Positions 1,824 through 62,159 of a stretch of 64,000 bases of DNA are shown here, piece by piece. A program made the translations under genes and the position numbers. The stretch covers positions 261,001-325,000 of the forward strand of contig JBAMJV010003250.1 of assembly GCA_037951105.1 (NCBI GenBank), given 5' to 3'. A model generated the notes under the pieces. The model was not told the origin of the DNA, ran no database searches, and saw nothing but the letters and a program-made list of their open reading frames with translations. Position 1 is the first letter of the stretch, and each line of letters begins with the position of its first letter. The stretch comes from Echinarachnius parma. Lineage: Eukaryota > Echinodermata > Echinoidea > Clypeasteroida > Echinarachniidae.

Positions 1824-2787
1824 AGTTGGGCAATTCCACTGAAATTGTTCACTTGCGTAAAAAAAAAAAGTTGAGAGAAAGGCTTGGCAATACTTAAAAT
1901 CTTGAAGGATATAGTCCAAACCATCATATTTTACTTGAAACACAAGTAATCAACTCGCTTTTGTTCGTTTTTTATGCTGATGAACATGATACACTAAAAT
2001 TTGAAATTTGAAAAAAATATTGCAATTTTTACCTAGTTTTATTTAATATTTCATGTGGAAAATTATGATTAGTTTAGGGCAAGTCCAAGATAACGCGCGT
2101 GTAACGTATGGGACATTTCAGAGACTTTCACTCCAAAAAAAAAATGTAGAGGGACTTTGATTTTATTCTTTTACCATCTCCATTACTGGTATCTATAAGA
2201 AGAATAACCTTGGTAAAGATGGTGACCTTTGACCTTTGCAATAATATTTTATTATATAAAATGTATGGTGTTACGTATGGGACCAGAAGAAATGAGGTTT
2301 TTTATAAATAATTTTTAAGTTAAAAACTCTGTGAAAGTAATTTAGAGGACAGGTTGTAATTCAATGTGGTAGAGGGTACATTGCTCAGGTTTGTTGAGGC
2401 AAAGTTTCATTTCATTCCGAAGAACGCTTTTCTTGTAGGCTCTAATTAATTTTGGTAAAGACGTGTTACGTATGGGACAGTTACGTATGGGACATTTTGT
2501 CCCTATTCGTTTAGTGTAGGGAAATCAATATTTAAGGCAAATTGAGGATATTTGGTTAAAATGACGAGTTGCCATGGTGATTGGTGAAAATAAGTATCAG
2601 AAATGGTTATGTCATTCCTTAAAACCCTATAAAAGAGGTATCACTCATTAATTTAGCGTTCCTAGATCAGAATCTATGCAATTTTACAGGAATTTGGGGA
2701 ATATGCAAATTAGGTAAATATCTTAATTACACAAATCATATGCTTTGTATAATGTTTTTGGAGTCAAAGTAAGTTAACAAATCTTAA

Positions 2788-3342
2788 AGGGATAGTTGAG
2801 TTCTGGTAAGGAGAGTACAGTTTTAGTGAAACTGAATTTTAGTAACCAAAACCTGCATCATTACATTACAAACTAATAGTTATAACTAGAAAGGAACACA
2901 AAATTACAAATGACGTAGTAAAGATCATGTTATCATTCAAAAAGAGCCGTTAAAACGTAAGAGGGCGCTCTCTAAACACTCATCGGTTTTAACCATTTTG
3001 AATAAAATATTGTGCATGTGATGCTTTGTTGAAATAGTGATTAGATAGAGAAATAACCAACAACTATTTAAATACCTATTTTGTAACTTTTTTGAAAAGA
3101 GGAAGCATTTTTTTGAATTTTTAACGGCTGGTTCAAAATTCTCTAATAAACCCGGGGCCCGGGTTTATTACCAATTGTTATATTTATGGATATTTCAGCC
3201 GTTTCTGAACCGATTTTGATCAAACAAAGATGATTTTATTGTTTAAATATTATGCTCTTTCAAATTTTACACTCAGTTTTTCATTACCTCACAAACCAAT
3301 TAAGTAGTCTAGCGCCCTCTCTACCAAAACTCAACTTTCCCT
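2788..3342. mobile_element. TTAA-flanked MITE, copy 1
   Basis: The inverted ends AGGGATAGTTGAG and CTCAACTTTCCCT are flanked by TTAA on both sides. The interior holds a segment shared by all copies (ATTTCAGCCGTTTCTGAACC). Full or partial copies lie near 20.9, 24.9, 25.5, 37.7, 39.3 and 56.5 kb. The TTAA target is typical of piggyBac-like or Kolobok elements; that assignment is inference. Confidence 0.8.
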
Positions 3343-3436
3343 TTAAATACATAATAGGACATGATTAAATTAAATTAGTACATTTTGTGTGTTTGTAAGC
3401 CACTGTTTAACAGTAATATTCATAAATATGCAAATT

Positions 3437-3865
3437 ACTGTCCGTTAGGGACAGCGCTGTTGCCATTTTTATTGCATGCACTAAGTATGCATGATCGTAC
3501 GCGCGCGCGCGCGATATGCATGTAGTACAGCTAAGGTAGTCGATATAGTTCGATCAGCTCAGCTCAGTCAGTTGGTGTTTTCTATCGCTCGAGTTATCCT
3601 ACTGGTGAAATTATCGTGATATTTGTCACTTGTTTATGTAAAGGTAGTTGTATCATATTTTTTGACACCAGCTAGTGATACTAAAAATTGTAGGATTCAG
3701 GTGAAAAACTAGACTTTTGTTAGCAGTTTTGCTACGTATAGAGCACGTAACTGGACTGTTACTGGTGCAGATCGCGCGCGCGCGTACGTACGTACGTACG
3801 AGATCAATCATGCATACTTAGTACATGCAATAAAAATGGCAACAGCGCTGTCCCTAACGGACAGT
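3437..3865. mobile_element. hAT-like MITE with long inverted repeats
   Basis: Near-perfect terminal inverted repeats of over 40 bp begin ACTGTCCGTTAGGGACAGCG. The 8-bp direct repeat TGCAAATT flanks the element at 3,429-3,436 and 3,866-3,873. An 8-bp duplication is characteristic of hAT transposons. The middle has alternating (CG)n and (TACG)n runs. It is non-coding and inserted in E1. Confidence 0.85.
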
Positions 3866-4477
3866 TGCAAATTAGGGGCAGCCATCTTAGATTTCAGGGC
3901 TTTGCTCAAGTGGTATGCAAATAAGAAGCAGAAATGGCTTAATTTGCCCCAAATACCTTAAATAAATTGTTGGAACATTTCACACTACATTCCTGAATAC
4001 AAATAAACATCTTGCTCTAATTCATGAATATGCAAATTAGCTAATTATCTTTAAAAATGTCTGCCGAGCATAAATTATTGTTTTGGCTCCACTTCTAAAA
4101 AAAGTTTATGGACCTTATTACTTTCTCTATACTCATTAACATTGATATATCATGACAATATCACTCCAAAATAAATATTTGCCTATCTGCCACAAAGGCT
4201 CCCAGCAGCTACATTGACTTTGTATGTTAATTATGTCCCATACGTAACACATTGTCCCATACGTAACACTTTCTTTGAATTCTAATTTTCTTATAAAACA
4301 AAGATCTAATGAAAAATTCCCAGCTTATTACATAGTATTTTACTTTTAAAATGGGCAGGTCCAAGCTAATGTCCCCCTTGATGATGAACATTCATCTTCA
4401 TTTTAGCATATCAAGTTTGGTATCATTTAAAAGCTAATAGTCTGAAGTTTAGATTTTTAGTGTGGAAATTTGCATAA

Positions 4478-6288
4478 GGGCAATTCCAAGCAAACATTGA
4501 CATAAGCACCCATTTTTCAAATTCGTCGAATCATAACATATTTGGTATCAAATTAAAGCTTAAAGATTAAACTATTCAGAAATGCATTTTGTTCAAAAAA
4601 ATTGTTGGCGTAAACTATTATTTCATAGGAATTAATTAGCATGAATTAATTTTCAATTATTTTCACAAAATATACTTGTAAATATTTAGCTTAAAAGAGC
4701 TGCAAAAATAGGTTTTCATAAAATTTTCTTTCAGTGTTGGTAAGAACATTACTTCAATTTATCAGATAAATATCTATTTCGGCATTTTCGCTCTTTGTTC
4801 TGCTTCAGTGACTGTTTCATTTATAGTCATCTATATGTCACGCTGTTACCCTAAAAACAGGTATTTTTAATATTTCTGGAAAAATATGAATGGGAATGAA
4901 ATTATTTTTTGTTTCTTCTTCATTCACCCATAGGGCTATATTATGGATGCTAAATAGCAGCATTATCTTTTACCACTAATTAATCTAAGCAATATCAATT
5001 TGGTCACGCTGTTACTTTTTGGGTAACAGCGTGACGCAACCTACTTTTTTTTGCAATATCTCAAGAATCGTTGGATGGATTCTGTTCAAACTTTGTACAA
5101 GACATTTATTCAGAGGTATGGATTATCTGATACACTTTGGGGCCATGAGGTCAAAGGTCAAAGGTCACAGCTAATTAATATGCAAAAAATATATTATTCT
5201 CAAGATATTTCAAGAATCCTTGAAGGATGACATGATAATTAATACTGGTATGCGTTCAGTGAAGTAGATGACCTGATTATAGAATTTGGTCATGGGGTCA
5301 AAGGTCAACAGGTCAAATTATTGTAGTTTATTTTTTATCTCACAAAAAAATGCCAGAATTAATGTTAGAAAGAGTACTGTAGATAAAAGAAAATTCTATG
5401 AAAATGTTTGGAGCACAGGTCAAAGGTCACTCGGATAATTACCCATTCAAACACAAACATTTACTGACATTGAAATCATGTTACATGAAACAAATCACTT
5501 GCAGATATGCACTGTGCCACATAAAATTTAATATTTGTATGCTAATTTGAGAAATAAGGTCAAAGGTCAGATGTCAAAGGTCTAATATTTCATTGTTGCA
5601 ATTAAGTTTGTATTTTGGGTTTGATATTTGATGGTTCCTCAAACTAAATTCTGAAAAAGATAAGAATTTCAGTTTTGTCCAAAAACATTTTTGATCAATA
5701 GAGGGCGCTAGGCTGCAAATTTGTGTCATGCGAACCATCATTTCAGAGCATCTGGGTTATATTACCCATTCATCTAGTTCTGTATAGATTCTGGATGACT
5801 ACATCAAAATTATATAATCTTAATTCATCTCATCAATATCTCCCATATATATAACATGTACAATTCAGAGGTCACGCTGTTACCGTCACGCTGTTACCGT
5901 GCACAGATACATTTATGATATCATATTTACTATGAACATTGGATTTTTTCTACATTTTTATTTGGATGTTCTAGCTTGATGTCTAGTACAAAGAATCAAT
6001 GTGACAAAATTGCAAAATGTTCCTGTAGTTCACAGAGTTTGCTTAGTTTCTTACCATGTAAGAAACCCATGTCTTTTTGCCGTCACGCTGTTACCGCAGA
6101 TATTGATATTCATAATTCATAATTTAGTGGGAATTTTGATTTTCTTTCCTATTGTAAATAATTAGTAGGATAGTGGTAACAGATGCATATCAAAATTTGG
6201 TTCTGGACATATTTTATTTTGTGAGTTATTTAGACTTTCATCGTGAGAAACACCCTCCTACAGTCACGCTGTTACCTTGGAATTGCCC
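4478..6288. mobile_element. E3: nested DNA transposon, motif GTAACAGCGTGAC
   Basis: A perfect 13-bp inverted repeat, GGGCAATTCCAAG, is flanked by ATAA (4,474-4,477 and 6,289-6,292). The private motif GTAACAGCGTGAC, in either orientation, starts at 4,837, 5,003, 5,023, 5,871, 5,885, 6,082 and 6,263. The last copy abuts the right inverted repeat. E3 is the smallest and cleanest member at 1.8 kb, with no element identified inside it. It also carries several AGGTCA-type tandem half-sites (5,148-5,167, 5,294-5,316, 5,417-5,430 and 5,557-5,569). It is non-coding. Confidence 0.88.
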
Positions 6289-7218
6289 ATAATCTGCATA
6301 TTTAACGAGTAGGGGTCATCTTATTTGCATATTTCAAATATTAGTGTGACGTACGGGACATTACATTTTTATTTCTAATATTTATTTAATCAATGGAGCA
6401 TTACTTTCATATATGGGAACTAGTAAAACTAATTACTAGCAATAGTTGACCAAATTTTTAAGTTTCAAAATTAATTGATTATGCTAATTAGGGCGTGTCC
6501 AAAATGCTATGTCCCGTACGTCACAAAAATGCGCACATTTTTTAATATTTCAGTATGAAACAGTTAATTTTTTTCTTTCATATTCTGTGAAGTTCTAATT
6601 TATCATACTCCTGACCAGCTAGCCAAGTTTGATGAAAAAAACATGTTTCGTTTTGATTTTATTAGCTAATTAACAAATGTGACGTATTGGACAAAAGTGT
6701 GACGTACGGGACATTTTCAGTGTTAAAGCAATGGCAAGGCAGGTAAAAATTATTTTTTTGTGTTTTAACCGCTAATCATCAAAATAATACATGCTTAGAT
6801 GCTCCCCAGAAGTTCAGAATAGATAGGTCTTACCTCCAGGAGCCATCTCTAAAAAAAAAATTCATGTTCCATTTCGTACTTTGTGATATAGCTGGGCAAT
6901 TCCGTATGAGAGAAGGCAAAAACACCACATCTCAAAGTTGAGCAATCTTCCCTAAATCAAACTGTTATCGATAGAGGAAAACTTGAATTTTAGGAAACTG
7001 AAAACCATTTGTGTATAGCTCTATTGGTTTTGCAAATATTTCTGCTTGAATTGAACAGAAATTTATGACCTTTTATTCATAAATCAGCTTCATTTCATGA
7101 AAATGAAGTGAATCTTTTAATTCAATGATTGTTTCTGCTCTTTTTCTCATATTTTCCATACAATGTAGCAACAATCACAAATTGTAAAGCATGGGCAGTA
7201 ACTTCATTGCATTTTTGT

Positions 7219-7735
7219 TTGGAGAAATTTTTGAAATCTATGCATATTTTATCGTAATTCCGTTACGATAAAACGTAATAAGTTTTTCTCAATATCTTAT
7301 TACTTGTTCTTTAGTCATGTCATTGTGAATTCTCTTCCTTCACCACAGTCCTAAGAATTTCCAACATAATTTTCTGAAATAATGTCACTACTTTTTCCAA
7401 AATTGGCGTAACGGTATTAGTAATTCCGTTACGTAACAGAATTACACGCACATGGTTTGTAAGGTATTGAATGATATTGGAGAAATTTTTGAAATCTATG
7501 CATATTTTATCGTAATTCCGTTACGATAAAACGTAATAAGTTTTTCTCAATATCTTACTTGTTCTTTAGTCATGTCATTGTGAATTCTCTTCCTTCACCA
7601 CAGTCCTAAGAATTTCCAACATAATTTTCTGAAATAATGTCACTACTTTTTCCAAAATTGGCGTAACGGTATTAGTAATTCCGTTACGTAACAGAATTAC
7701 ACGCACATGGTTTTTAAGGTATTGAATGATATTGC
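7219..7735. repeat. Tandem duplication of about 260 bp inside E4
   Basis: Two near-identical units start with GGAGAAATTTTTGAAATC at about 7,220 and 7,480. Each unit carries two copies of the E4 private motif. The main difference is a short deletion of a repeated TTA near 7,307 in the second unit. Confidence 0.9.
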
Positions 7736-9032
7736 TGAAAATAAAAAAAATTCTTGTTCTCAATGTAGAAATACCCTTTAAATAGCATGAACTGTAGCCA
7801 TGTAGACAATACATCATTATACAAGTACTGTACAATGTTACTTTATGTGACTCATTGTACCCACATGCTTCATATTGCATCAATGGTGATTTAACTAAAT
7901 TGATACACGATAGATAATTTCTCTAATCTCTCCATGAACATAATAGAGATGATTATGTTCTATCATTAAATTAGTTTCCAGCAAGAACCACTTGACTGAA
8001 ATTATGAAGATGCAGCAGATTCATGTTTGTACTTTAGAAAGGGAAAAACAAAAACAATACAATTTTTTTTTAAATATCCAGTGATTAGTATGACACTGGT
8101 GCTACATTTGTTTTCTCACATTAATTTACATTCATGTATTTTAAGATATAAATCATACCTTCAACTTTCAAGGAGATTTAATATTAATAATTATGTAATT
8201 GTATGTAGATTTGAATATCATTGATCTGTTAAAGGCTCATAACTTATCATTAATTATGTAAATTTGTATTAAACTGAAGCATATAAAATTAAACATAAAT
8301 ACAGAATAGGCTTCAAGATATTTAAAACTAAACATAATACAGGCTAAGATACACATGTTTTATTCATTATCATAAAGTCATAATACATTGAGTGTTCAAT
8401 GTGCTTCTGTATGCAGATCAAAGAAGAATGATGTACAAAGTATTTGCATTTTCAAATGGGAATTCCTAAAGGTGTCTTTAATTTTTGGCAATTCCATATT
8501 TATATTTTATATGCCAACTTTATGTTTGAGGATCATACACGTTTATATCCGATATACATCTATACACGTATTTCATGGAATGGATGAAAACGCATTCCAA
8601 ATTGATTTGAGAGTAAATTAAGATCAATTTAGGATGAATTTTTTAAAGAATAATTTTAGAATATAACAAGAGTTTATATAACAAATCTCGATTTTCTTGT
8701 AATTCTGTTATGCACACACATAACTTCAGGATTTGTTCTGGTCCTTATACATGTATGTAAGGGCTTGTGATGAACAATGCATACACATTCTTTACTAAAT
8801 GACTATTTAACAGAAAAGCAGAAAAATGTAACCAAGAAATTGCATTTTCATGGGTGGATTTCACAGGCGTAATTCCGTTACAGTGACATTCGTTTGTCTT
8901 AAGGTAATTTCAGAGGTTAAAATAGATCATTTCTGGAAAAAAAGATGTACCAAATTCAAGTTTGTAACTTAAATGATAAGTTTTTATTACCAATGAAGAA
9001 TTTTTTGTGGTTGCTTTTGCAGAAAATCATTA

Positions 9033-10105
9033 CCGTATTTGTCGGTGTATTACCCGCTCCGATGTATTAACCGCACCCCCAACTTTGGCCATTTTTCCAT
9101 GAAAAAAAAAAAAATTTGATAGTATAATTCTTGATTTTTAGTCTTTAGATGGTCAGCATTTTCTTAGGAAAGGTACCAAAAATAGCTTATCTATCAGAGA
9201 AGTTTTGCCTATGAATTTTGTTTTATTTACTGAAGCCTCCGAAGTAAATAAAGAAAATTATCAGGCCTTCTTCACAGCAGAAGAATCTATAACTTCTGTT
9301 GAATTTGCCACACGGATCACTACACATGGGACTACATAAAACGTTAGACAACAAAACAAAGATTTCACCACTAAAACAATCAGAACGGAGATTTAAAAAA
9401 AACTGTACCTTAATGTTATTCCTTCTTTCTAGTTTAAATTATGTTGAATCTACTCTTGAAAACTGTTTCAGGGGATAAGAAATTACGATCGTTACTTGCG
9501 AGTGCATTGTACTGATATATACGATCACGATGTTGTCATGTCAGCTCACATGTTTTGAAGGGTGGATTATTATTTGAGTATTAGCACTCAATAGTTTAGC
9601 ATAATTTTGATGACATATCGAGTGCTACAGTGTACAACGTACCAATTTCTTATTTAGCACATGCGGAAATCGCACACGTGTGTGCATATTCAGCGGCGTG
9701 GCCTTTCACCTGAACGAGGGCCTGTGCTACCCGCAGCGCTAGCATGCACACCGCCAGCGCGCACCGGCGCGGGGCCGGGCGGCGGCTTGGGGTCGCGTCG
9801 GGAAAGAGAATTCCCGCCTGAGCTTGAGCTGAGGTAAAAGAGAAACAAAAGACACTGCATGACTTGTTTTGGGGGGAATATGCTTGTATTTTCCATGCAT
9901 CGTATGAGTATGAATGCCTTGCTGAGGTGGACTTTGGTCACTTGTGAATCTTATCTCCGTGTATTAACCGCATCGTAATTAAGGCCCGGCGCTGGCTAGG
10001 CAATTTGCGTGTACAATTTTCCTATCTCCGTGTATTGACCGCTCCCCCCATTTTGGAGCTTTTTTTTTGAGAAAAAAGGTGCGGTTAATACACCGACAAA
10101 TACGG
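9033..10105. mobile_element. TA-flanked element with CCGTATTTGTCGG ends
   Basis: The inverted ends CCGTATTTGTCGGTGTATTA and TAATACACCGACAAATACGG are flanked by TA. A short GC-rich patch (about 9,695-9,800) gives a proline/glycine-rich ORF shadow with no recognisable protein. A TA duplication would fit a Tc1/mariner-type element, but no transposase is visible. It is inserted in E4. Confidence 0.7.
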
Positions 10106-11522
10106 TACATAGTTAGTGTTGAATGAAAGACCCCTTTCCGTTATGATTGTATTTTGGTCTCTGGACGCTACAGTGTTATAGATTTGTAACAATCTTGGGT
10201 TCTGTTGTACCTCTAGTACCCCTGCCAGTTATTAAAGTTTTAAAAACTGTGAAAGTGAAAGGAATTTTAAATATGATTAAGAAAACAGAGCTAAAAATCA
10301 CTTATTTGTCATTCTGTAACAGTGGAATTACCCATTCACAATGCATTTCCATTCACACAGATTTCCAATATTCAGGAAGTTTACGAGGCTTTTATAGCAT
10401 TGAAAGTTGAATGATTTGACCTGTTTGTGATTTGTAATTGTTTAATTGTTGCTTGATATTGATTATGTGCAGTTATTTAGCATTTCACATAATGTAGTAC
10501 ATTTTTTTTCACAATTTAACCATTTTTCTTGAAGTAAAGGAACAATTCTAAAATGTTGCTTTTTTTCTTCTTCAAATATGGTTATTATTGTCAAATTATT
10601 GATTTTTGAAAAGTATTGAAGTTAAAATGTGAATTCTTTGTTGTTCATGTACCGATTTGTGGAAAAATTGATTTCACTGCTTAAGTTGTGTAATTCCGTT
10701 ACACACATTAGTGGACATAGTTCATAGGATTTTTCTTTCATTAAATTGATGCAATCCTTTTTAATTTCATGCCTACTAATATGAAGCTGAAAATAAACCG
10801 AAATAAAGCTGGATTTTAGCAATATTTTTTTCAAATTTCACTCTTATTTGTATTTTGGCCATATTTTCATTTATTTTACACATAACAAGTTCAAAAATTG
10901 CTTTACAGATATGTCAAATTATGGTTTATATTCAAGTGCTAGATAGCCTTGATGTTTGCATGAGCATGTAAGAAAAGTTGAGTGCAAAATAATTGAGTTT
11001 TCCTTGAAACTTTCAGAGATGTAATTCCGTTACAAATTTGTGTAATTCCGTTACAGTGTTTTTTTTTCAAAAAAGTGAATTTGTAAACTTATCATTGTGT
11101 TGTTTATGCACGTACTTGTTCCAAAATGAAGTTGACATTATCAAGATAGAAAAAATACATAAAATCAGTTTCAAAGTGTCTTATATTTCAGAGAAACTCA
11201 ACGCAAACTTGTAGCAAAAAAAAACCTCCATTCTCCGGTAATTCCGTTACGGTCACACATATTGGTCTAGTGTGCAACAACACATGGAAGATATAAAACC
11301 ATTTCCCTATCGTGTTGTAGCCTGGTTACCCGTGCAACTTATATAAGTATCAAAATTTACGTAAGTCATGAGAATTTTGCGCAGGGAATGAAATAATGAG
11401 CAAACTAGATGGATCTTCGATTGCGCGCAATCGAAAATTATGCCTCCGCTATCACGCAATTTTAATATCAAGCCCAAATTAACATGCACTGATTTCATTT
11501 GTAAAAATATTTTTCATATATT

Positions 11523-12395
11523 TTGAGTCCTGTGACCTTGACCATATCTTTGATGGCTCCCTAAAAAACATTCAGGTACCAACTTTGATTGAAATCTGAC
11601 ATTTAGTTCTTGAGATGTTGGCATTACAAGCTTTTTTGCATGTATAATGAGTCCTGTGACCTTGACCTCGACCTCATGACCCCAACATTTTATGGCTACG
11701 TTGACTCTTTATGATACATTCAGGTACCTAGTTTGATTGAAATCTGACATTCAGTTCTTGAAATTTTGCAATTCCAAGCCATTTTCGCATATATATGGAG
11801 TCCTGTGACCTTGACCTTTGACCTCATGAACCCCAAATCTAATCAGATCATTGCTACCCCGATATGTACACTCATACCAAGTTTGAAATTGATCCGTTAA
11901 CCGGTTCTTGAGATATCGCAAGAACGAGGCATTTCTACACATATATTGAGTCCTGTGACCTTGACCTTTGAACTCATGAACCCCAAAATCTAATCGGATC
12001 ATTGCCACCTCAAATTTTACACTCAAACCAAGTTTGAAATTGATCCGTCAACCGGTTCTTGAGATATCGCGAGAACGAGGCATTTTTGCATATATATTGA
12101 GTCCTGTGACCTTGACCTTTGACCTCATGACCCCTAAAATCTAATCAGATCATTGTCACCCCAATATGTACACTCACACCAAGTTTGAAATCGATCCGTC
12201 CACCGGTTCTTGAGATATCGCGAGAACGAAAACGGGACGTACGGACGGACGTACGGACGTACGGACGGACGGACGGACGGACGGACGGACGGACGGACGG
12301 ACGGACGGACGGACGGACGGACGGACGGACGGACGGACGGACGGACAACCCGAAAACATAATGCCTCCGGCCACTTCGTTGGCGGAGGCATAAAA
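11523..12395. repeat. Degenerate ~150-bp repeats plus (CGGA)n core, non-autonomous element
   Basis: Four to five diverged units are each marked by GTCCTGTGACCTTGACC (near 11,529, 11,653, 11,800, 11,952 and 12,105). They are followed by a (CGGA)n microsatellite at about 12,236-12,345, then by TGGCGGAGGCATAAAAACG. Microsatellite-cored mobile elements of this layout are common in marine invertebrates. I do not find matching inverted ends, so the class is open. The unit contains tandem AGGTCA half-sites on the minus strand. Confidence 0.65.
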
Positions 12396-15182
12396 ACGTC
12401 TCTGAATGTAATTCCGTTATGGTGGAATTGCCCAGCTATATTTTCATGAAAATATGTCTTGAGGGGGAAATTTGAAATCTTAAAATTACCTTTAATTAAT
12501 TATCTAAAATACTAGACAATCAATTTGAATAGGGAAATTGCGTGTCAATGAAGGAGAGACAGTAGTACACTGGTTAAGTACACCAAGACCTTCCAAACGG
12601 GTTCAAAAACTGTAAGAAAGTGCTAAAAAGGCACAAAATATGATCACTTATTCTTCTGAACAGTCCCATGTATAGGATTTGATGTAAGTTGCCCCATTTT
12701 CGATGATTCTGTTTAATTTACTCATATTAATCTCTTTTTTGGCAAATTCAAAAGTAATTTACATCAGAAGAATGTAACCAACACATATTGGTGCCAGGAA
12801 AAATAGTTTTTGTTAATTATTAATTAGGAATTAATTAGCTTAATTAATTAACTTTTTTTTTAAAGTCGTATCGTAACTTTTTGTAGAAGTATATATATAT
12901 TTTTTTTCATCAGAATATATTAGATTTATACAATAAGAACAAATATATTGCAAAATAAAATGAAATTAAAATAGAAAAATGACATAGTTTTAGTGAGGAA
13001 AAAATGTCCCGTACGTCACATGTCCCGTACGTCACGCGCATACCTATTATCTTTCATTAATTATCGTGGGAAAAAAAGTTGTGAATTAATTAATTTTTTG
13101 GTAGTGTGTACTTGAATGTTTACTGAATGCATATATTACAAATTAGTTAGTATTAGCCAATAATTAAATATTAATGAGCGATTTTATTTTATTTTTTTGC
13201 ATTTTAGGAAGGGACTGCAAGTAGCTTCCCAAAGCACCAAAAAGATTCTAAATCATAGCATCTTCCTCCGAGTAATAATCAATTAAAAGCTGTGAATGTC
13301 CCGTACGTCACAAGTCAAATAGCTTGGACCTGCCCAAATGCATAAATTAGAACTTCCCAAAGTTGCACTAGAATAACTATTAAATTATTTGAAAAAAATT
13401 AAAAAAAGTTCCTCATTTTGTTACGTATGGGACATTTCACGCTAAGACATGACCTAATTTGCATAATTAATTAGGTCATGACTTAATGTTTATGTAAAAT
13501 TTATACGGATGATTGAGTGGTCATGTCTATATATTAATAAAATATCATATCATTCCCTTTGATTTGTTATGAATTTTTATAATTGTCCCATACGTAACGC
13601 TCTATTTCACATTTATGCAAATGAGGCCCTTCAAATTTGCATAAATTTACATAAATTTTAATTTCTTTTTATGGAATTCAAAACTTCAACTCATGGGCTT
13701 CAATATGATGTGAAACATGTCATCAGTAAATCAAGATGAAATTTCAACAGCTAGGTTGACATTACCTTGGACTTGCCCTTTATTGCTCATATTTTGTGTT
13801 TTTTATTGACTACATACAATATCTGAACTAAACAAAAAAGAATTATAATACCTTTTTGATTCATATCTTTGCTACAGAAAGAGAAAGATTACCGATTTCT
13901 TTACTATTTTGAGCGTAATGTCCGTAACGTTTTCAATCAAAAGTTTGTATAACTAACACAAATTTCATTCTAATAAACTGTAAATTCATTTTCTATGTTA
14001 GAATTATATGTCCTTCCTATGGTGAAAACCAATAAATATTAAAATGTTCTGTTTTCTCAAAAATTGCGTTACGGACATTACACTTTGTGTTACGGACATT
14101 ACGTTACGGACATTACATAGCATACTATTATTGAAAATAGTCTCGAAGGGACAGTGTGTTTAATGAATACTTGAATGGATATTTATCAAATGTGAATGTT
14201 AATGTTAATAATCAATGATCAATTGTGTTGACAAGGGTTGAAATAAAGTGTCAAATTACACATTTTAAAGACAAGCCCTTAACCCTAATAATGCCGGAAG
14301 GTGGCCATAATGCTTTTGATTGCTCCAAAACGCTGTAAGATGACACGCCGCTGGATGGTGACTTTTTTCTTTTGGGTCTTGCGCATATTTTAAAACAAAA
14401 ATTTTGAAAATCGGACCTACCGTTACAAAGTCACGTGAACTTTTGTTTATGCATGTCAGCCCGAAAATTGCTCAATTTCATGATTTGTGTACAAAACATA
14501 TGGAAATATCAGTTTTCGTAAAAAGAGGTATATCATTGGTTATTTGGTCTTGTTTATATTTTAAATGTTTTTTGGGGGTTTTAAAATAGTTAAATTATAG
14601 TAAGAAATAAAATAAACAATACAAAAATTTAAAAATGAGTAAAAAAAAAACAAAGAAATACATTTAAGAAATTATAAAAACAATAGAAAACATAAGGAAG
14701 AACCTGGCTCTTCCAATTTTGTTTGTTGTATCATTATTCCAAATGCTCTAAAGAATATATGTAGTGAAAACAAATCTTTAATTATGAAGAATATATGATT
14801 TATGGGTAAAAATATGAATGTTATGACCTTATTTGCATAAATTGCCATAAATATGCAAATTAATGAATTTTTCAAAAAATCAAAATTACCATTGTATTCT
14901 TTACACTTCACTTATCAGGCATGCAAATTTTCACGGCGCCAAGAACACAAATTTGTTGCTTTCAAATAGGCTCATTTTGAAGAACAAAATGCGGACAAAA
15001 GTGTAATGTCCGTAACACTATTAGTGTAATGTCCGTAACGCCATATTTCATACTGTGAGTAAAATATAGATCACTGAATTTACTAATGGCTTCCATCACC
15101 ATTTAGAATAACATCTTGTGATCCAAATAATGTAAGATATTAACATGTTTGGTGGTTAAACTCACAGGATTTTGGCATTATA

Positions 15183-17037
15183 CATACCGTGGGTGCTGGA
15201 GAACCCGGACAGTCACACAAAACACAGTGCGTCATTGACTTTGTACACGCACCGTGCGCGGTGTCCGGGTTCTCCTGCACTGCGATAAATTGAACCTTCG
15301 TGCATGAAATCGCGCCGTGCGGAAACCCGCTTTGCCGTTGAGCGATAATTTTTTATCAGCGAAGGCAACGCGATATTACGGTCCAATTGGTGTAAGTTTC
15401 TACCGAAATGAACTACTGAGCGTAGATTTACAAAAGCGAGAATAAAGATTATAAAAATTGTAATCTCAAATTATCGTGAATAAAATAAAAAATAACAAAT
15501 TTTGGAGTTTAAAGACTGACTTTCAAACGATTTTCTGGATAACCAGGAGGACTACAGAACAGCAATATACAGTCAAACCTGTCTATAGCGGCCGCTCAAG
15601 GGAAACTTGAAAAGTGGCCGCTATAGACAGGTGGCCGGTATAGACAGGTTGGCGGCCATTTTTTTTTAACAACATGATTAATAATAATTAATATCACATG
15701 TACACATGAACATAAACAGCATGTACATTTATATACGGTATATGAAATAAAAGAACAGAACCCTGGAAACTTGTCTTGTTTTTTGAGTAATTTGTGTGAT
15801 TAGTGTTGAGAAAATAATGAAAAGTATGTGTAAACCTTCCTAAAGAAATCTACCATCGTCTGTTTGGCCGACTGTCGTTCGCTTTCGTTGAAGAAACAAC
15901 TCTCGATCTCCGGCCGCGCCGCGCGCCGGTGCATGCAATGCTAGCTGCGATCGTGTGAATCTTTGCCTGAACACAAATGCTGTTACGTAAACAAAATATT
16001 TTTGATTGAAAAAAAAAGTTCTAGAAAATACGACGATGAAACGAAAAGTTTATAAGCGCAGAAAAATATTTGTTATAACTCTATCAATAAGTGTTTCAAT
16101 TTTTAAAAATGTTTCGCAAAGAAAAATAAACATTTAAATGTACGAGGCTATACAAACCGGTTTAGATCCGATCCGGTCCGATCCCCAATACGGCGAAAGT
16201 GTGTGCATTGTGTTGCATGATCAAAGCCCCTTGCGCTGCCGCTGCATGCAGTCTATCTAGCGGTCAGCGGCCAGCGGCAATGCCAGCTACCAGCGCTCAG
16301 CGATCGATAAACCACGGAGCTAACAATGCGTGCATGAACAATAACACGGATGTTCAGCCAGCGCGCGCTAATCTCGGGTACCCGCTAATCTCAAGAAGAG
16401 CGCGCGTAGCATAGCTGAAAGCTCACGTCACGGAAACAATGCGTGAGTAAAAATAGAGCAGTCAGCGGACGAGGTAAACAAAACAAACGGCCATTTTAGG
16501 CTTTTAAACTTGACATTCATTATTTAGGCGGCACTTTTTCAAAGCTAAAGGGTAGATCTACAGCCCTAGACTATGGGTATATTGTTCGATAATCTTGGCT
16601 GCAAGCTCGGTTTCACGGCAAAGCTGGTAATCTCCACGGCTATGCATCGGAAAATAACAAACTTGCACGCCTGCAGTTACGGGCAAACCGAACATTGATG
16701 GCCGCTATAGGCGGTAAAAAATGAGTTTGGGAAGCCAAATCCGTGGCCGCTGGCCGCGTTAGGCAGGTGGCCGCTATAGACAGTGTTTATAACACTGTAT
16801 TTTCCTCGGGGGGAATTCTATGTGGCCGCTAACGGCAGGTGGCCGCTATAGACAGGTGGCCGCTAGTACAGGTTTGACTGTGTATGTATTTTATGAGCAA
16901 TATGCAGATAAATCGTTTGATATAAGTTTCGAGTCGCATGTTCAGTGCATTCTCGGCAAATCTAATTTCAAAGGTAGCCCTGTCCATTTTTTGGCCGGGT
17001 TCTCCCCCCGTCCGGGTTCTCCAGCAACTACGGTATG
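15183..17037. mobile_element. Element with inverted ends CATACCGTRGKTGCTGGAGA
   Basis: The left end near 15,183 and the right end near 17,037 are inverted copies of about 28 bp including GCTGGAGAACCCGGAC. It contains the CAGTCAAACCTG element at 15,570-16,880 and lies in E0. No transposase is recognised. The target duplication is unclear. Confidence 0.55.
15570..16880. mobile_element. Pogo/Tigger-like element with CAGTCAAACCTG ends
   Basis: The left end is CAGTCAAACCTGTCTATAGC (preceded by TA) and the right end is CAGGTTTGACTG. Subterminal GTGGCCGCTATAGACAGG repeats occur on both sides. A shorter copy lies at 20,530-20,742 and a one-ended fragment near 49,312. The pogo-like label is inferred from the CAG terminus and TA flank; no transposase ORF is seen. 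Confidence 0.55.
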
Positions 17038-19575
17038 GACAGGTCTGTTATTGTTAACTTCGCGCGTATCCCAACTTCGCGGATCATAGGCGAGATATGC
17101 AAAAATTAGAACACGGACACGGCGACGGAAATTTTCAATGTCAACTGAAAGAGCACACATCAATTACTCATCAACCAAAAAAATAGCAAATAAAGAGCAA
17201 TATTTCTGAAGAAATACTTACTTTTTGTGGTCTTTTTTTGTAAATCACAACTTTGGTGTTCCAACAAAATTATGGAGGAGGAAGTATCAAGCAAATTAGA
17301 CGGAAATCGTTCCAGTAGAACATATTTGTTGTCATCGAAAGGCTGCGCAAAATGCTCCTTTATTCGACCTACCCATCAAATTTACTTTCGGATCGCGCAA
17401 TCTCCGTAGATAGCTTGACAACGCTGCGCGTGCTAAGATGCTAATGCGCGCAAAATGTTTGCATCATCACACTGCCATTGAAATGCGTGTTACGGTTTGC
17501 TACACGGGATACGTGTTAAGTCAATGGCAGGGTGCCCTATGTATTATGCGCGAAGTATGGAGACTACCATACTCGGTGAAGAAGCTCTTGCTGATATGAC
17601 ATAGTCACGGAATCGGGTCATTAACACTAGGCACTTCAGTCACATGACAAAACCGAGTGGACAACTCTCGCTAGCGCTGCACATAGCCAGCGAGCGGTAC
17701 CTTTCGCGAACGATAATGTATGCATGACATCATTGATCGCGTGCGCACGCATCTCATTACGAGACTTGGCTGGCTTCTGGGTCGATTATGCATGCCATGA
17801 AAATGTGGTATCGGAGCGGTATCGGTCTGGACATAGCACAGGGTTTACCCTTTTCGCTGCATTCTCTTCCCACAATTCATTTCGATGCTTACGTCATTGG
17901 CTTTCTGAACGCCCATTCTACACGTTGATACCAAATTCGATACGCGACTCTTTGGACAAAATCTTGTGAAAGAAGGTCTTTTTCACCTGCTGTTTTTCGC
18001 CAAAATGGATTTTGAGCTATTCGGGATGCCGTTTATAAGGTCAGTTTTCGATATTTCGAAAATTTTGTATGTGAATGATGATAATTTATCTGAATTCTAC
18101 ATACTTTTATCGATCGTTTCATACCTTTTTTCTTGTGTGCGAGTGTTGATAAAGTTGTTGACATGGACATTATGCATGGTTTTGCAGTCCCGATATACAG
18201 TAGCTATCGTCGTACTTTTTTGTGCATGTACAGTGGAGCGCTCTGGCACGTGTGCGTGGGGCTGGCCTCATAAATATTCATATGATTTTCATGCGCAAGC
18301 GCACTTCGGCTGTACTGGCGCTCGGCGAAGTCATATAATGGGAAGACACGATGAATGGGACAGCGGGCTATGTGCGCTGCAGGGCGATCGCGCCGCTCGC
18401 ACAGCGTATACTGTGTGTACACCTTGCCATACACTCGCATGCAACTCCGATCGCATCGCTAGCATCCGCGCGGATGGCCAGCTCATTCGGCGATGTCGGG
18501 TACTACCCAAATCTGCAATGTTGCTTGGAACTTATGAGACGATCTTTCTGATTGGTCCAATCCCCGAAATATGACGTCACCTTCATTCATAAATTTCTGA
18601 TGAAGATCGGTTTTTTGTTTCGTCGAAATCGGACATGTAGTAAGGAAGTTACGACACAATCAAGAAATCTCTCCCAAAATACTATCAAAAGTCCTTCTCA
18701 GAACCAGCCGAAACTTGGTGAGTAGAAAACTTGGATATTTTACTGTGCTTGTGGAAAGTTTCATGGTGTTTCGTTGATTCAAAGCGAAAGTCTGATCACT
18801 TTTCTGAGCAATGGTTCATACAATCGCAAGGTATTTTTGCAGCAGTGTGCGCAGCTTCTGTGCGCAGCTTCTGTGCGCAGGAGTTGTAGGCTGCGGTGCA
18901 GACCCTACATGCAGTTTCGTATCGTATCCGTTGATTTGTGCGATAAATCATTTTAAATATGGAATTTATTTGACAAATCTTTTCCAAAGAAATAATTGAA
19001 TGTTGTTCTTTTTGTATAAATAACCCTTTTTAGGGTGAATATTGATGATACTAGATATGAAAAATTATTTTGGAAAATAAATGAAAATACGGGTCTGATA
19101 ACAAGGACTAGAACAGCTGTAACTGCTAAGATGGTTTCTCCATAGGCCATGTATTATAACAGTGCCATCGCTAAAACAAAGGGAATAATAAGAAATTGCA
19201 ACATGGTTTTGTCGGCATAATTGGCAAACAATGATGTACATAAATTGCCATATCTCGACTTTCCCTCAACCGATTTTGGAAATTCAAAGATTGTCTTTCT
19301 TCTGAAGGATTGCTCTATCAGACAAACCTAATTTCAATCAGTTTTAATGGTAAATTAAATTTCACCTAAAGTGCCTATTAACACCACGAATTGTGAGTTT
19401 AAATGAAATTGTTCAAGATAAATCGAATCCTCAGAATTTGAGGGGTAATTTATTATTGTTTCATTGAGATTACTGTAATTTTCTTGATCCTAAGCCACTT
19501 TGAAAAAATCCTAAATTTTCGTGCGCGAAGTTAGGATACACCTTCATACTGTGTAAAATGCTTTGTCCGTTTAGC
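17038..19575. other. E0 interior, no recognised gene
   Basis: This stretch includes a 202-codon ORF (17,966-18,574, plus) with no recognisable domain. A short direct repeat GCGCAGCTTCTGT lies near 18,850. I see no splice structure or known protein. Confidence 0.4.
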
Positions 19576-19784
19576 GTAATGTCCGTAACGAAAACAAAAT
19601 GTCTTTTTTCTCAGCAAATATTCATTCCTCAGTCATGAAACTTTGCATGTTTATCACTGACTATTTGAAGTTACTGAATCAATGACTCAAAATGTTTCCT
19701 CTTGTTTTATTTTTGCTGTGGATGGTTCTAAACAGTGAAAAATATGTCTGATGGTAATGTCCGTAACGCTGGAATTGCCCAGTT

Positions 19785-21925: not shown

Positions 21926-22029
21926 ACGAGTATCACCACCCACCGACAGAGGACACCGCTACAGCAGCGTCGCCATCCCAGTCTAGCTGAACTACAGCCC
22001 CGACCACCACAGGGGTCTGACCAACCACT

Positions 22030-22880
22030 ACAACCACAAGAAGATGACCAGCCACCAACACCACAACCTCAACCATAAGAAGATGACCAAACACCACCAC
22101 TACCACAAGAAGATGCCCTATCACCACCATCATGCACACAAGAATATAACCAACCACCACTACCACAAGAAGATGCCCTATCACCACCATCATGCACACA
22201 AGAATATAACCAACCACCACTACCACAAGAAGATGCCCTATCACCACCACCATGCACACAAGAATATAACCAACCACCACTACCACAAGAAGATGCCCTA
22301 TCACCACCATCATGCACACAAGAATATAACCAACCACCACTACAACAAGAAGATGCCCTATCACCACCATCATGCACACAAGAATATAACCAACCACCAC
22401 TACCACAAGAAGATGCCCTATCACCACCATCATGCACACAAGAATATAACCAACCACCACTACCACAAGAATATGCCCTACCAACACCACCACAAGAATA
22501 TAACCAACCACCACTACCACAAGAAGATGCCCTATCACCACCATCATGCACACAAGAATATAACCAACCACCACTACCACAAGAAGATGCCCTATCACCA
22601 CCACCATGCACACAAGAATATAACCAACCACCACTACCACAAGAAGATGCCCTATCACCACCATCATGCACACAAGAATATAACCAACCACCACTACAAC
22701 AAGAAGATGCCCTATCACCACCATCATGCACACAAGAATATAACCAACCACCACTACCACAAGAAGATGCCCTATCACCACCATCATGCACACAAGAATA
22801 TAACCAACCACCACTACCACAAGAATATGCCCTACCAACACCACCACAAGAATATAACCAACCACCACTACCACAACCAC
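22030..22880. repeat. 60-bp minisatellite with 354-bp higher-order period
   Basis: About thirteen units of 60 bp (core ACCACAAGAAGATGCCCTAT) include a 54-bp variant unit that recurs. Sequence variants recur in the same order 354 bp apart, so a block of six units was itself duplicated. Both periods are multiples of three, so several frames on both strands stay open. The longest are a His-rich frame (plus, 22,044-23,093) and a Val-rich frame (minus, 21,933-22,916). A third plus-strand frame reads EYNQPPLPQEDA repeats and is broken once near 22,076. None has a recognised domain, so I treat this as a non-coding satellite. Confidence 0.85.
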
Positions 22881-23093
22881 AAGAAGATGCCTAACCACCA
22901 CTACAATCGCAACCATACGAATATGACCAATTCAACTACCACCATCACCATAAGATGCCCAACCACCAACCCAATCCCAAACATAAGAATAATGACCAAC
23001 CACCACCACCACCACCACCGGAACCATAAGATGACCAGTCACAACTACATGCATGAATATGAACGCATCACCCGCATCGGTCGCGTTGGCTGA

Positions 23094-26027: not shown

Positions 26028-26709
26028 TTTAAATATTTACGATTGAATACACGTTAATATAATAAAACTTAATATACAAGTATTCTCAATGAATATCTAT
26101 ATTATGCTCCCAAAATCGTAGGTCAAATCGCGTTTTATTTGTTTTCAAAGTTATTCCTTGTATGTGTACTATGATGGTCTCAGCCCATTGGTTGTTTATA
26201 ACGATAACATTTTGTAATATGTTGCATAATACATATTTTCACAATGCTTCTAGAATAAAGTTTAAACTAATTCTGCCCTCTCATCTTCTCGGTACACCAA
26301 AGAAAAACCCATTGCCATGGCAACATAATTTACAAGACGTAAATTAAGTTCCAGCAACAAATAATTACATATTATACAAAAACAAAATTGGATACCACGA
26401 TCATGATGGAATGATTCATTAAAGGTAGTTCAGATTCGTCAAATGAGATGCGCGGCGCCATCTTGCATACGCGTTGCGCACGGTGCGTAATGCACGTTAG
26501 CTCAGTGTCATGCGGTGCGCGCAAACTAACCCAGTTCAAAATGGCGACCCGCTATGTAGCATCCCCACGCTTGATGCCCTTTAAATCTCGGGACGGGTCA
26601 CAAAAATACTCTAGATGGAGTAAATATTACGTTTATATTATACATATCAAATGTAAAATAACAATTTGGCCTCCAATATGTTAGAGGTCTAATTCACCAG
26701 CGGTATCCA
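26028..26709. other. 3' flank of receptor gene A
   Basis: Downstream (minus strand) of the gene A stop codon; presumably 3' UTR and intergenic sequence. Parts resemble the flank of gene B (about 41,880-42,120). A CpG-rich patch at 26,435-26,600 is specific to this copy. No other gene is seen. Confidence 0.4.
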
Positions 26710-27708
26710 TCATGTACCAAAGGTACTACCGAGGTCATGGTAGGTGTGCTGAAGACATCCATCAGAATGATCACTGTCGTCATCACCTACGTCTCGACGT
26801 GGTGCTGACCTGGTGATGTCACTAAACAAATGAAGACCTCCACTTTTCGATGGGCGGGTGACATCATCTAATCCATGGCGACCTGAACCAGTAGACCGGC
26901 GGGTGATGTCACCAAACACATGACGACCTTTCTCTGTAGATGACCTGGTGACGTCACGAAACGCACCTGTTGAAGACACGAGGCCACGAGTTCCCTTGAA
27001 GACATCTTCGCTCTCCATGTACGTGTGCTGAAGCGCTTCCGTATCACCACCATCATCCACTCGACCTTTCGCGGACACAGAGAAGGACTGACGATTCATA
27101 TCGGATCCTACTCCATGCCTTTCTGGGACAGGGTAGCCCACGTCACCAGTCGTTGATTTGACAACACGTTTCTTTAGTCCGTCCTTTAATTTTGGTTTGA
27201 CATGTTTGGGAGGTGGACATTTCTTTGACTGGTCACTAGGCAAGGCCGACATTGGAGTCAATTGACACTTTGCGGCGGTGATATGTGCAGTCGGCACCAT
27301 GTATCCAGATTCATCGAAGACTTCCGTAATTTCGTCATCATCATCATCATCATCACAGTCGTCAAACTGATCGCGGTTCGGGATGCGAGACCTTATTATG
27401 TCTTCCTGGTCGATGCTGTCGACATGATGATTCTCTGAACCATGGTACTCATGTTCAACCACGTCTTCACTGGAGAAGACTGACATAATCGCCAGAGGGT
27501 CAGGAACCAATGTGTAGTTGTTGGTCTCAGACCCAAGAGATGAATTCGAGTCGAGTTCGTTGCTCGCATGCTTCATGAGGAAAAAGTCTTTTGATAAAGA
27601 CTCCGGGACAGAATCATAGGTGTTGTCCTCAATGGTTTCATCATTGGTCCTCGGGAACCTGTACCTAGGTGGGAGGTCTGGTAGGGCTGTAGCTTCCTCG
27701 TAGATATT
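26710..27708 (-). CDS. Gene A cytoplasmic tail exon (333 codons with stop)
   Basis: The acceptor CATATAG|AAT opens at NIYEEATALPDLPPRY, and the exon ends in a TGA at 26,710. Nine tyrosine motifs are visible: YEEA, YRFP, YDSV, YTLV, YHGS, YMVP, YPVP, YMES and YHDL. The last two sit in matching LQHTY contexts. There is a short aspartate tract (CDDDDDDD), a proline-lysine patch (KKCPPPKHVKPK) that could bind an SH3 domain, and four tandem copies of a ~15-residue repeat of the form DVTRSSTEKGRHVF near the end. These are typical docking features of a signalling tail; the actual partners are unknown. Confidence 0.85.
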   Translation of the reverse strand, partial: NIYEEATALPDLPPRYRFPRTNDETIEDNTYDSVPESLSKDFFLMKHASNELDSNSSLGSETNNYTLVPDPLAIMSVFSSEDVVEHEYHGSENHHVDSIDQEDIIRSRIPNRDQFDDCDDDDDDDEITEVFDESGYMVPTAHITAAKCQLTPMSALPSDQSKKCPPPKHVKPKLKDGLKKRVVKSTTGDVGYPVPERHGVGSDMNRQSFSVSAKGRVDDGGDTEALQHTYMESEDVFKGTRGLVSSTGAFRDVTRSSTEKGRHVFGDITRRSTGSGRHGLDDVTRPSKSGGLHLFSDITRSAPRRDVGDDDSDHSDGCLQHTYHDLGSTFGT

Positions 27709-35108: not shown

Positions 35109-35700
35109 TATGTCATTCAGTTACGTCCTCCGCAATATAAAAGCAACGACGACGCAAACATATAACATAACATATAAAGGAATGCCTATATTCCACACGA
35201 GGACAACTGAACAAGATCAGTATTAACGTTTCTGAAATTGTGAAATGCCAAAATAAAAAAAAACTGTATTTCGTAACAACTTAGATCTAACATATATTAA
35301 AGAAGCACATCGGCAAGTTATCTTTCCAACTCGTGTATTTCAATACGACGAATTAGGACAAAGGTTTAGCGACGAACAAGAACAGTTAACGCGAACATAT
35401 CGTTGCAGTGTACGTTCAGCATATCGGCGAGTCCTCGCGCATCATTCTCAATGCACGCAAACGTTTCATTCCAAGTAAAATATATAAATTATTGTCACGC
35501 CTACATTTAAAAATATGCAAATTAGACAGTGCACGGCGTAATGGAAAGGTGTTATAATTTATAGCGACTTCGTGAGAAGGGCTTTTTAAATAACATAACA
35601 TGTGCTCATGTTTATTTAAAGAGGCTCATTAATCACAGTCAAGAGTATTTAAAAACCTACATGTTCTCAACCGATCAACTCGAGGGTCACGTTTAAAGGT
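35109..35700. promoter_or_regulatory. 5' flank of gene A, shared with gene B
   Basis: Upstream of the gene A start. It is similar to the flank of gene B (about 51,926-52,520), including AGACAGTGCACGGCGTAAT and ATCACAGTCAAG, so the duplication includes the presumed promoter. No TATA box is assigned. Confidence 0.45.
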
Positions 35701-35702
35701 AA

Positions 35703-35775
35703 TAAATCTATCTATCTAATATATTTATCTATCTATCTTTTTAGATAATATATATCTATCTATCTATCTTATCTT
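35703..35775. repeat. (TATC)n microsatellite
   Basis: Imperfect TATC repeats abut the 3' end of the RTE-like LINE on the minus strand. RTE elements commonly end in such short tandem repeats. Confidence 0.75.
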
Positions 35776-36720
35776 TCTGTGACTCTAGTGACTCTGTGAC
35801 TTCTTAGTTGTTGCCCAAGTCTCTGCCCAGTAGGATAGTACCGGAAGTATAGACAGGTTGAATATTTGTATATAAGGGAGATTGCAAGATCCACGTCTCT
35901 GAGTGTGATGATAAGTCTCCCAAATGTTACCCAAGCTAACTGTTTTCTTCTTTGCACCTCTCCTGCCGTTCCACTTTCAAGGGTGATGTTTTTACCGAGC
36001 TATATCCACCTTCTGCAATATTGTATGGCCTTGTAGCTGGTTGCTCATCGTTACCTTGATCGTTTTTATGTTAATTTTGAGTCCTGCCTGTTTACTCTCT
36101 TCACTCAATTCACGGATCAGTGTATGTTTGTTCCTGGGGATCATGACTCTAACAAGCATGATGTCATCTGCAAACCTTAGACGATCGGATGTTTCCCATT
36201 TTTTGCAATTCATATTGATTGCCAGTCCAGGTTACGGAAGACGTCTTCCATGGCTGCTGTAAAGAGTTTCGGAGAATTTGGATCATCCTGTCTGACACCT
36301 TTCTTGATTTTGAACGCATTGGTAGTAGTATTCTCCAGATAAAATTTGTCACTAGGATCTTTGTAAATAGCTTTGATGAGGCGGATGTATTTCTCATCGC
36401 TTTCTGTTTCGCATCTAATAGTGACTGGTTGTCTAAACTATCAAATGCTTTCTCGTAATCCACGAAACCTAAACACATGTTGCAACGATATTCGTTCGCC
36501 ATTTCAATGATCTGACTTAAGGTGTGTAGATGATCTGATGTTCTGAATCCTGCTCGAAAGCCTGCCTGCATGTTCTTCCCATCTAGCTGTCGTTAGTGAA
36601 GTCTTTGTACATGTGAGGTAGTAAACTGATGGGTCTGTAATTATTCATGTCTTCCGTGTCCCCCTTTTTGAACGTGATAACTATAGATTCATTATATACA
36701 AATAATGAAAACGCGTGTTC
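35776..36720 (-). mobile_element. Degenerate RTE-like LINE, reverse-transcriptase fragment
   Basis: Minus-strand frames in order: TFKKGDTEDMNNYRPISLL (about 36,690), QAGFRAGFRTSDHL (36,570), GFVDYEKAFDS (36,455; palm motif A), LRFADDIMLV (36,165; catalytic FADD box), and RRKQLAWVTFGRL near 35,940. This order is typical of RTE-clade reverse transcriptases. Several frameshifts and stops interrupt it, and the 5' part, including the endonuclease, is missing. Confidence 0.82.
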
Positions 36721-36785
36721 ACGAGTTTTCTTTATATACATATAATGGTATATATATATTGGTTTTGCACTTAATTCATTATATA

Positions 36786-42955: not shown

Positions 42956-43082
42956 CCTAACGGATAAGTTACTTCGCATGCTGGCAGCCATATGACTGGG
43001 GACGGATCCCGAATGTTGTAACATAATCATGCGGCCTTTAACGCGTTTACGTCCTTTGCACTGTAATTCACCAGCGGTTTCA

Positions 43083-43715: not shown

Positions 43716-43754
<39 letters not shown>

Positions 43755-61983: not shown

Positions 61984-62159
61984 GTAACTAAATCGATTTG
62001 TTCTCTTTCATATAAACATAATTACTATGGATGCTGATAACGAAATTATTTCGAACGACTCTGCAGCTTCTGTATTTCCATAGTAGTGTAAGGGGTGGCT
62101 GACCACATTTAAATTTGTTATTTTATGCTTATGTATTTTTATTGTTTTAATCCAAAAAA

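Follow-up and report, generated by a model that had tools for sequence, protein, structure and literature searches.

Six probable non-autonomous DNA transposon families of Echinarachnius parma with private motifs at shared positions

Described systems and the nested elements of the window

Repeated sites behind the tips have been described in several groups of DNA transposons, and we compared these groups with the elements E0 to E5 found in a 64-kb stretch of the Echinarachnius parma genome (C3249:261001-325000 in an assembly of 1.2 Gb and 14790 contigs; GC content 36.6%), which is called the window throughout. The common tip of the elements is GGGCA(A/G)(T/G)TCC and their target site duplication (TSD) is 4 bp long and mostly AT-rich, ATAT being the most frequent. 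We consider it probable that E0-E5 are non-autonomous DNA transposons of the cut-and-paste kind and form six families, each having its own sites for a transposase, or for a subunit acting together with it, and having looped ends.

Like the families described here, CACTA/EnSpm elements possess element-specific subterminal repeats, and their members are mostly non-autonomous. In the Jozin CACTA elements of Chenopodium species the 12-bp subterminal unit differs between elements (PMC8978399), and CACTA subterminal units are bound by TnpA (PMC8195511). However, CACTA/EnSpm elements are defined by CACTA tips and a 3-bp TSD (PMC8978399) and contain many close units (two Jozin elements have 19 each), whereas GGGCA tips, a 4-bp TSD and, in most families, 7-8 sites at fixed nucleosome-scale steps are seen here. 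We therefore do not place E0-E5 in CACTA/EnSpm on the basis of tips and TSD.

Several spaced sites in each end are also a feature of the inverted repeat/direct repeat (IR/DR) ends of Sleeping Beauty (Tc1/mariner). The step between its outer and inner sites is about 165 bp. The spacing of these outer and inner binding sites matters, and the duplication is TA (PMC8151067). In contrast to two sites per end and TA in Sleeping Beauty, the elements here have three to four sites per end, asymmetric ends and 4 bp, and the 4-bp TSD led us to reject Tc1/mariner membership. Tol2 (hAT) resembles them in having subterminal repeats behind its terminal inverted repeat (TIR) (PMC8151067), but these are three repeats of ~30 bp near the right end only, and the TSD is 8 bp. 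The target of Kolobok and piggyBac is TTAA (PMC9587614). Since TTAA is only one of the 37 exact TSDs obtained here (locus L024), this membership was also rejected.

Ginger tips are TGT, and the GGGCA tips speak against this group. The TSD of Ginger is 4-5 bp and that of AcademX is 3 or 4 bp (PMC10045372); Academ has been amplified in bivalves (PMC10294476). Sola2 elements of three Dictyostelium families have TIRs of 12-13 bp and an AT-rich 4-bp TSD of the form AWWT (PMC3627910). The elements here resemble AcademX in TSD length (4 bp at 37 resolved loci) and may resemble Sola2 in TSD and in TIR length (10-16 bp here). Against these, neither inside the elements nor linked to them did an Academ protein turn up, and only a part of their TSDs fits AWWT (among the 37: ATAT 10, TTAT 3, ATAC 3, of which two are the same insertion, and ATAA 2; CCCT, AGTT and TACT also occur). 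An affiliation with AcademX or Sola2 is possible.

Subterminal words that differ between elements are already known from CACTA. What appears to be new is a conserved layout in which the words are exchanged, and it may have been described earlier: a literature search outside Repbase and most subscription journals returned no description of a conserved nucleosome-scale layout with word exchange, and none of the ten top-ranked papers contained both the tip GGGCAATTCCA and 'transpos'.

A first-pass annotation of the window had proposed five nested layers with GGGCA-type ends and perfect 4-bp repeats, and all five were recovered. When all GGGCA/TGCCC pairs with a separation of 100-20000 bp are considered, no more than five combine matching 4-bp flanks with a TIR of at least 8 bp, and these are E0-E4 (exact TIR length 10-16 bp). 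Short TIRs alone are weak evidence, since an unbiased scan gave 59 TIR-like pairs with a 4-bp match as compared to 19-25 in five first-order Markov sequences; the strong evidence is provided by the genome copies. Inverted tips combined with a duplication of fixed length (an exact 4-bp TSD at 37 of 53 loci) identify the elements as TIR (class II) DNA transposons. For E5, which the annotation mentions but does not position, the place was obtained by searching generally for GTNA..AC words that recur. In the following list, the M-end is the end with the tip-proximal site and the N-end is the opposite one; private lengths were computed by excising the inner elements plus one copy of each duplication.

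1828-19780: E0, outermost; TSD AGTT; M-end right; private length 6247 bp
2077-13778: E1, inside E0; TSD TTTA; M-end left; private length 2715 bp
4353-13335: E2, inside E1; TSD AAAT; M-end right; private length 1624 bp, without 84 bp that hold one site
4478-6288: E3, inside E2; TSD ATAA; M-end right; 1811 bp
6894-12433: E4, inside E2; TSD AGCT; M-end right; private length 5540 bp
60250-60659: E5, M-end half only; right tip at 60659, left end not found in the window; motif GTTAGTAACGTTAC (read inward)

The nesting is an ordinary accumulation of insertions. Nesting among kin is not unique to the window, because a decayed E3-like element at L037:4648-8987 hosts a full E3 (6468-8276) in the same orientation, all flanks being ATTA.

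Genome copies, private motifs and shared site positions

Copies of all five families and of E5 are present elsewhere in the same genome (candidates scored: E3, 39 of 2122; E1, 40 of 2732; E4, 40 of 7284; E2, 40 of 422; E5, 40 of 476). TSDs were surveyed at 53 loci, including three window copies (L009, exact; L017 and L039, not exact). An exact 4-bp TSD is present at 37 of them, one being the window E3, which bears out the expectation that other copies share the GGGCA boundaries and 4-bp duplications. By family, the TSD is exact in all eight E3 loci (the window's own included), 11 of 20 for E1, 14 of 20 for E5, both E0 loci, one of two for E2 and the single E4 locus.

Of the scored E3 candidates, 38 including the window copy cover 1-1799 or more at 98-99% identity; all but one of the 37 besides the window copy span 1-1811, and the eight loci read have all-different TSDs and seven exact motifs each. 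E1 copies are made up of segments 1-712, 1267-1361 and 1790-2276 of the query. The 11 with an exact TSD measure 1698-1733 bp and contain eight sites in ten cases and seven in one; the remaining nine of the 20 loci, which include the window copy, did not reveal a pair of tips with equal flanks. For E0, the copies on C4046 and C3892 (L061/L062) are 1885 bp long with TSD ATAC, lack 4353 bp of the window E0 and have sites at 14, 192, 380 and 403 from one tip and 381, 534, 555 and 569 from the other. As the two share TSD and flanks, they are counted as one insertion. The E0 query is further matched on C10034 over 23-1409 and on C6440 over 1-948. The one full E2 copy read is 1708 bp, which is 84 bp longer than the private sequence of the window E2, with sites at 25, 195, 391 and 407 and at 179, 344, 512 and 532. 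The scored E2 copies hold a stretch absent from the window E2, and both tips were not seen at the second E2 locus read (L080). The E4 copy read measures 3214 bp and has TSD ATAT, with sites at 14, 195, 391, 412, 743 and further inside; the scored E4 copies lack 1072 and 987 bp of the window E4. E5 copies other than the query itself show 93-97% identity, and 12 of the 14 with an exact TSD are 762-791 bp long. The E5 tip was seen in 18 of 20 loci, each of them with sites at 14 and 192-196 and 16 of them with both copies of the doublet. With regard to coding capacity, the copies read are short (mostly 777-1885 bp, E4 3214 bp), and no open stretch of the E4 copy read exceeds 115 aa.

Each family carries a 13-14-bp motif of its own. 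The positions in the window are as follows, + and - giving the strand.

13915-19767: E0 motif GTTACGGACATTAC; starts 13915-, 14068+, 14089+, 14103+, 15003-, 15026-, 19576-, 19754-
2101-13598: E1 motif GTTACGTATGGGAC; starts 2101+ (1 mismatch), 2270+, 2465+, 2480+, 4235-, 4254-, 13420+, 13585-
6346-13311: E2 motif GTGACGTACGGGAC; starts 6346+, 6511-, 6679+ (2 mismatches), 6699+, 13006-, 13022-, 13298-
4837-6275: E3 motif GTAACAGCGTGAC; starts 4837-, 5003-, 5023+, 5871-, 5885-, 6082-, 6263-
7254-12420: E4 motif GTAATTCCGTTAC; exact starts, all +, 7254, 7420, 7512, 7675, 8869, 10690, 11021, 11042, 11238
E4 motif variants: 7433-, 7688-, 12408+ (1 mismatch); 7408-, 7663-, 8699+ (2 mismatches)
60253-60646: E5 motif; starts 60253, 60268, 60455, 60633 (GTAACGTTACTAAC on +)

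As the annotation had claimed for the five layers, every exact copy (8 in E0, 7 in E1, 6 in E2, 7 in E3 and 9 in E4) lies within the private sequence of its own layer and none is present elsewhere in the 64 kb. Besides these, there are near copies in E1 (one, with one mismatch), in E2 (one, with two mismatches) and in E4 (the variants above); its figure of 7-10 copies per layer holds roughly and is slightly high for E2. Compared across families, the motifs differ in 2-8 of 14 columns when the base that 13-mers lack is scored as a mismatch, and they have G1, T2, A4, A13 and C14 in common. A motif copy does abut the TIR, starting at base 14, in E0, E3, E4 (with one mismatch) and E5, whereas the first copy in E1 and E2 starts at base 25. 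The suspected link between motif type and TIR subtype is seen in one copy per family: in E1 and E2, the two families with GGGAC-type motifs, the tips read GGGCA(A/G)GTCC and the sites begin at 25, and in the other four families the tips read GGGCAATTCC and the sites begin at 14. The flanks contain no exact E3 site in eight of eight E3 loci and no E1 site with up to two mismatches in 11 of 11 resolved E1 loci.

The association of motifs with elements extends to the whole genome for the two motifs counted. The E1 motif occurs 936 times as compared to 2 for its reversed control and the E0 motif 155 times as compared to 11. Among the places listed, 98 of 100 for E1 and 83 of 100 for E0 are clustered. 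Of the steps between these places, 66 of 78 for E1 and 50 of 61 for E0 measure 12-24 or 160-210 bp. Seven clusters of the E0 motif (C647, C1281, C1531, C2211, C2722, C3375 and C6270) show the four-site array of the M-end alone, with steps of ~178, 188 and 23 bp. Their N-end being unseen, a further E0-like family probably exists.

The annotation had not seen that sites occupy nearly identical positions, in the same orientations, across families. We compared one standard copy for each of the six families, counting sites with up to two mismatches and dropping an overlapping two-mismatch reading at 196 in E5. At the M-end, all six have sites of the same, inward orientation at 14 or 25, 192-195, 379-392 and 394-412 bp from the tip, so that the first site is followed by steps of 170-181 and 187-197 bp and then by a second copy 14-23 bp further. 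At the N-end, E0-E4 have an outward-facing site at 344-381 (344-382 in the five window layers) and an inner group at 512-569, with an extra site at ~180 in E1 and E2. E5, located after the pattern had been noted, shows the same M-end (14, 192, 379 and 394) and no further N-end sites. In its 777-bp copy, the site at 394 from the M tip is 371 from the N tip and is oriented like the 344-381 site of the other families, which suggests an economical layout.

The mean positional spread is 3.4 bp at the M-end of six families and 10.6 bp at the N-end of E0-E4, the lowest values among 200000 random placements being 29.2 and 18.6 bp, respectively. This test uses two positions per end (at M the second site and the beginning of the doublet, at N the 344-381 site and the one following it), with the ~180 sites of E1 and E2 and the N-end of E5 outside it, under a null that ignores descent. 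A first version, with E0 and E2 uncorrected and E4 outside the M-end, gave 0 of 20000 at the N-end and 4 of 20000 at the M-end. The spacers matter because the placement null leaves out descent: their identity at the M-end is 0.50-0.59 as compared to 0.50-0.53 after shuffling (each pair tested against 30 plain shuffles; z between -0.1 and 3.5). The layout is thus kept far better than the spacer sequence, although a trace of common origin may remain in spacers and doublets.

Before correction, the window copies departed from the shared positions at three places: the inner sites of E4 lay ~990 bp and the doublet of E0 ~4.3 kb too far in, and E2 was one site short. From the shared layout we therefore expected beforehand that E0 would hold an insert of ~4.3 kb and E4 one of ~990 bp; comparison with the genome gave inserts of 4353 and 987 bp. 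The site missing from the window E2 is present in the copy that has the 84 bp.

Proposed role of the sites and competing explanations

We propose that a transposase, or a DNA-binding subunit working with the transposase, would bind the 13-14-bp sites and that the ~153-197 bp between sites would be held as loops, each formed by one nucleosome or by a protein-bent stretch. The looped ends could then pair as one M-end and one N-end ahead of cleavage at the shared tip; the asymmetry of the ends may secure this pairing, and the geometry of the loops would preserve the spacing of the sites. If the DNA-binding part of the protein changed, all the sites would have changed along with it, such that each family would answer to its own enzyme. 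The shared tip is likely to be the cleavage signal and the motif a family-specific address. It could well be, a view we hold tentatively, that the layout is a fixed ruler carrying exchangeable address words, in which the sites switch sequence together and mutually private transposase-site pairs exist in one genome. The idea of the annotation that binding specificity diverged along with the DNA fits the motifs well; the protein itself was not found.

The families bear on the open question of how a DNA-binding protein and its many sites can change specificity together while function is kept. Six solutions of one design, in many copies within one genome, make the route between specificities and the rule of end pairing testable, and the conserved steps of ~153-197 bp bear on whether transposon ends are built on nucleosomes or bent loops. 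If the cognate enzymes are found, they would form a natural orthogonal set.

Several observations weigh against this proposal. No transposase was found, and no autonomous relative encoding one could be identified. A Pfam scan covering four open reading frames (ORFs) of the elements assigned the three from the E0 insert to no family and gave the one from E4 a match below the cut-off only. The Academ nuclease is XPG-like. A genome search gave three hits for XPG_I (PF00867) and one for XPG_I_2 (PF12813), none of them linked to an element. A candidate autonomous member at C472:155-162 kb was rejected for now, as no transposase-like frame could be seen by eye in 450 bases of its interior, which resemble, by eye, the tail of another repeat. 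The positional comparison has one copy behind each of the six families, some spacer pairs exceed the shuffled level (z up to 3.5), and E4 has three further interior sites. Of the listed E0-motif places, 17 of 100 are solitary, where the control would lead us to expect ~11 of 155 by chance. A further point concerns the doublets: within E0 and within E1, the doublet of one end aligns with that of the other at 89% (over 46 bp in E0 and 37 bp in E1, counting the short spacer inside the doublet), so that descent or local copying has left a mark.

The last of these points bears on another account, in which the layout is plainly inherited from one ancestor and gene conversion or short duplications maintain the likeness of the motif copies within a family, no protein being bound. 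Doublets are tandem copies, and their alignment within E0 and within E1 makes local copying of doublets possible; tips and parts of the N-ends of E1, E2 and E3 are also still alike. However, the M-end spacers have diverged to near-random identity while positions shifted by a few bp and orientations stayed fixed, and most sites share nothing beyond the motif when 8 bases on either side are compared, which makes this account improbable. We regard recruitment of host factors, such as replication, transcription or chromatin proteins, as more improbable still. Although the nucleosome-scale steps of ~153-197 bp would suit such proteins, a host factor would be expected to recognise a single sequence and to have sites elsewhere in the genome, whereas six motifs are found in six families of one genome, none in the flanks examined, and solitary places make up only 2 of 100 listed for the E1 motif. 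Chance or an assembly artefact can hardly be entertained: the unbiased scan does yield other short inverted pairs with 4-bp matches, but copies lie on many contigs with different TSDs and motif counts are far above the control.

The strongest competitor, possible but clearly less probable than binding by the transposase or its subunit, is that the sites bind an accessory or regulatory protein in the manner of TnpA of plant CACTA/Spm elements and that the transposase reads the GGGCA tip only. The tips are nearly invariant while the motifs change, as this would require, and in CACTA the 10-20-bp subterminal units differ between elements (PMC8978399) and TnpA binds them (PMC8195511). The sole point separating the two is the first site, which lies directly behind the TIR in four of six families, a place expected of the cutting enzyme.

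One genomic hit stands apart from the elements: the XPG_I_2 match at C1283:206873-207166 lies in a 642-aa open frame, possibly of a transposon protein or of a host gene. Relatives on viral contigs were also rejected: the first search pattern gave L001, which is without a second tip or a repeated motif, the second and fourth gave none, and the third gave seven contigs, in each of which the two sites differ from one another at 6-8 of 14 bases. A search of plasmids with E3 alone gave no match.

Later insertions and other features of the window

The spread of motifs through kilobases of interior, on which the first-pass annotation had remarked, is an artefact of secondary insertions and not a property of the elements, since the window copies of E0, E1 and E4 hold later insertions. 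In the standard copies all sites lie within ~570 bp of an end, except three in E4. The later changes are the following.

15192-19544: secondary insert in E0, 4353 bp; absent from C4046 and C3892 (query 1-1409 joined to 5763-5998)
2789-3342: insert in E1, 554 bp; copies match query 1-712 and 1267-1361
3438-3865: insert in E1, 428 bp; copies match query 1267-1361 and 1790-2276
9034-10105: insert in E4, 1072 bp; absent from the scored copies
11405-12391: insert in E4, 987 bp; 151-bp tandem repeats and a GGAC microsatellite
7219-7734: tandem duplication in E4, period 255; doubles a site group

Within the 1072-bp insert, a stretch of 1030 bp (9063-10092) is another transposon type: its 13-bp inverted ends TGTATTAACCGCA are perfect, and its 4-bp duplication reads CCGA. 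We take the 987-bp insert to resemble molluscan repeats of the pearl/CvA type. The E0 insert contains a young repeat of ~697 bp (17679-18375; 33 other copies listed, 97-100% identity). A different part of E0, ~625 bp at 14314-14938, is shared by C4046 and C3892 and recurs in dozens of other places at 88-92% identity with no further E0 sequence attached. Repeat pieces that are 92-99% alike and inverted relative to each other lie at 2849-3268 (in the 554-bp E1 insert) and 37822-38242, and the former has more relatives near 21, 25, 39 and 57 kb.

Outside the nested elements, a tandem repeat with a 60-bp unit and strong GC skew occupies 21946-23019, with several frames open, and a stretch of 482-484 bp at 36784-37267 has 13-bp inverted ends around ACAGGGTGGCCC and AT-type flanks. 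A domain search matched a CUB domain in two ORFs, genes by which the window is recognised as animal DNA.

32979-33482: ORF with CUB-domain match
61530-61991: ORF with CUB-domain match

The CUB-type ORF region is present as a tandem duplicate (26700-36000 and 43000-52000, the copies being 16.1-16.9 kb apart), and inverted relatives of this duplication are located at 59-63 kb.

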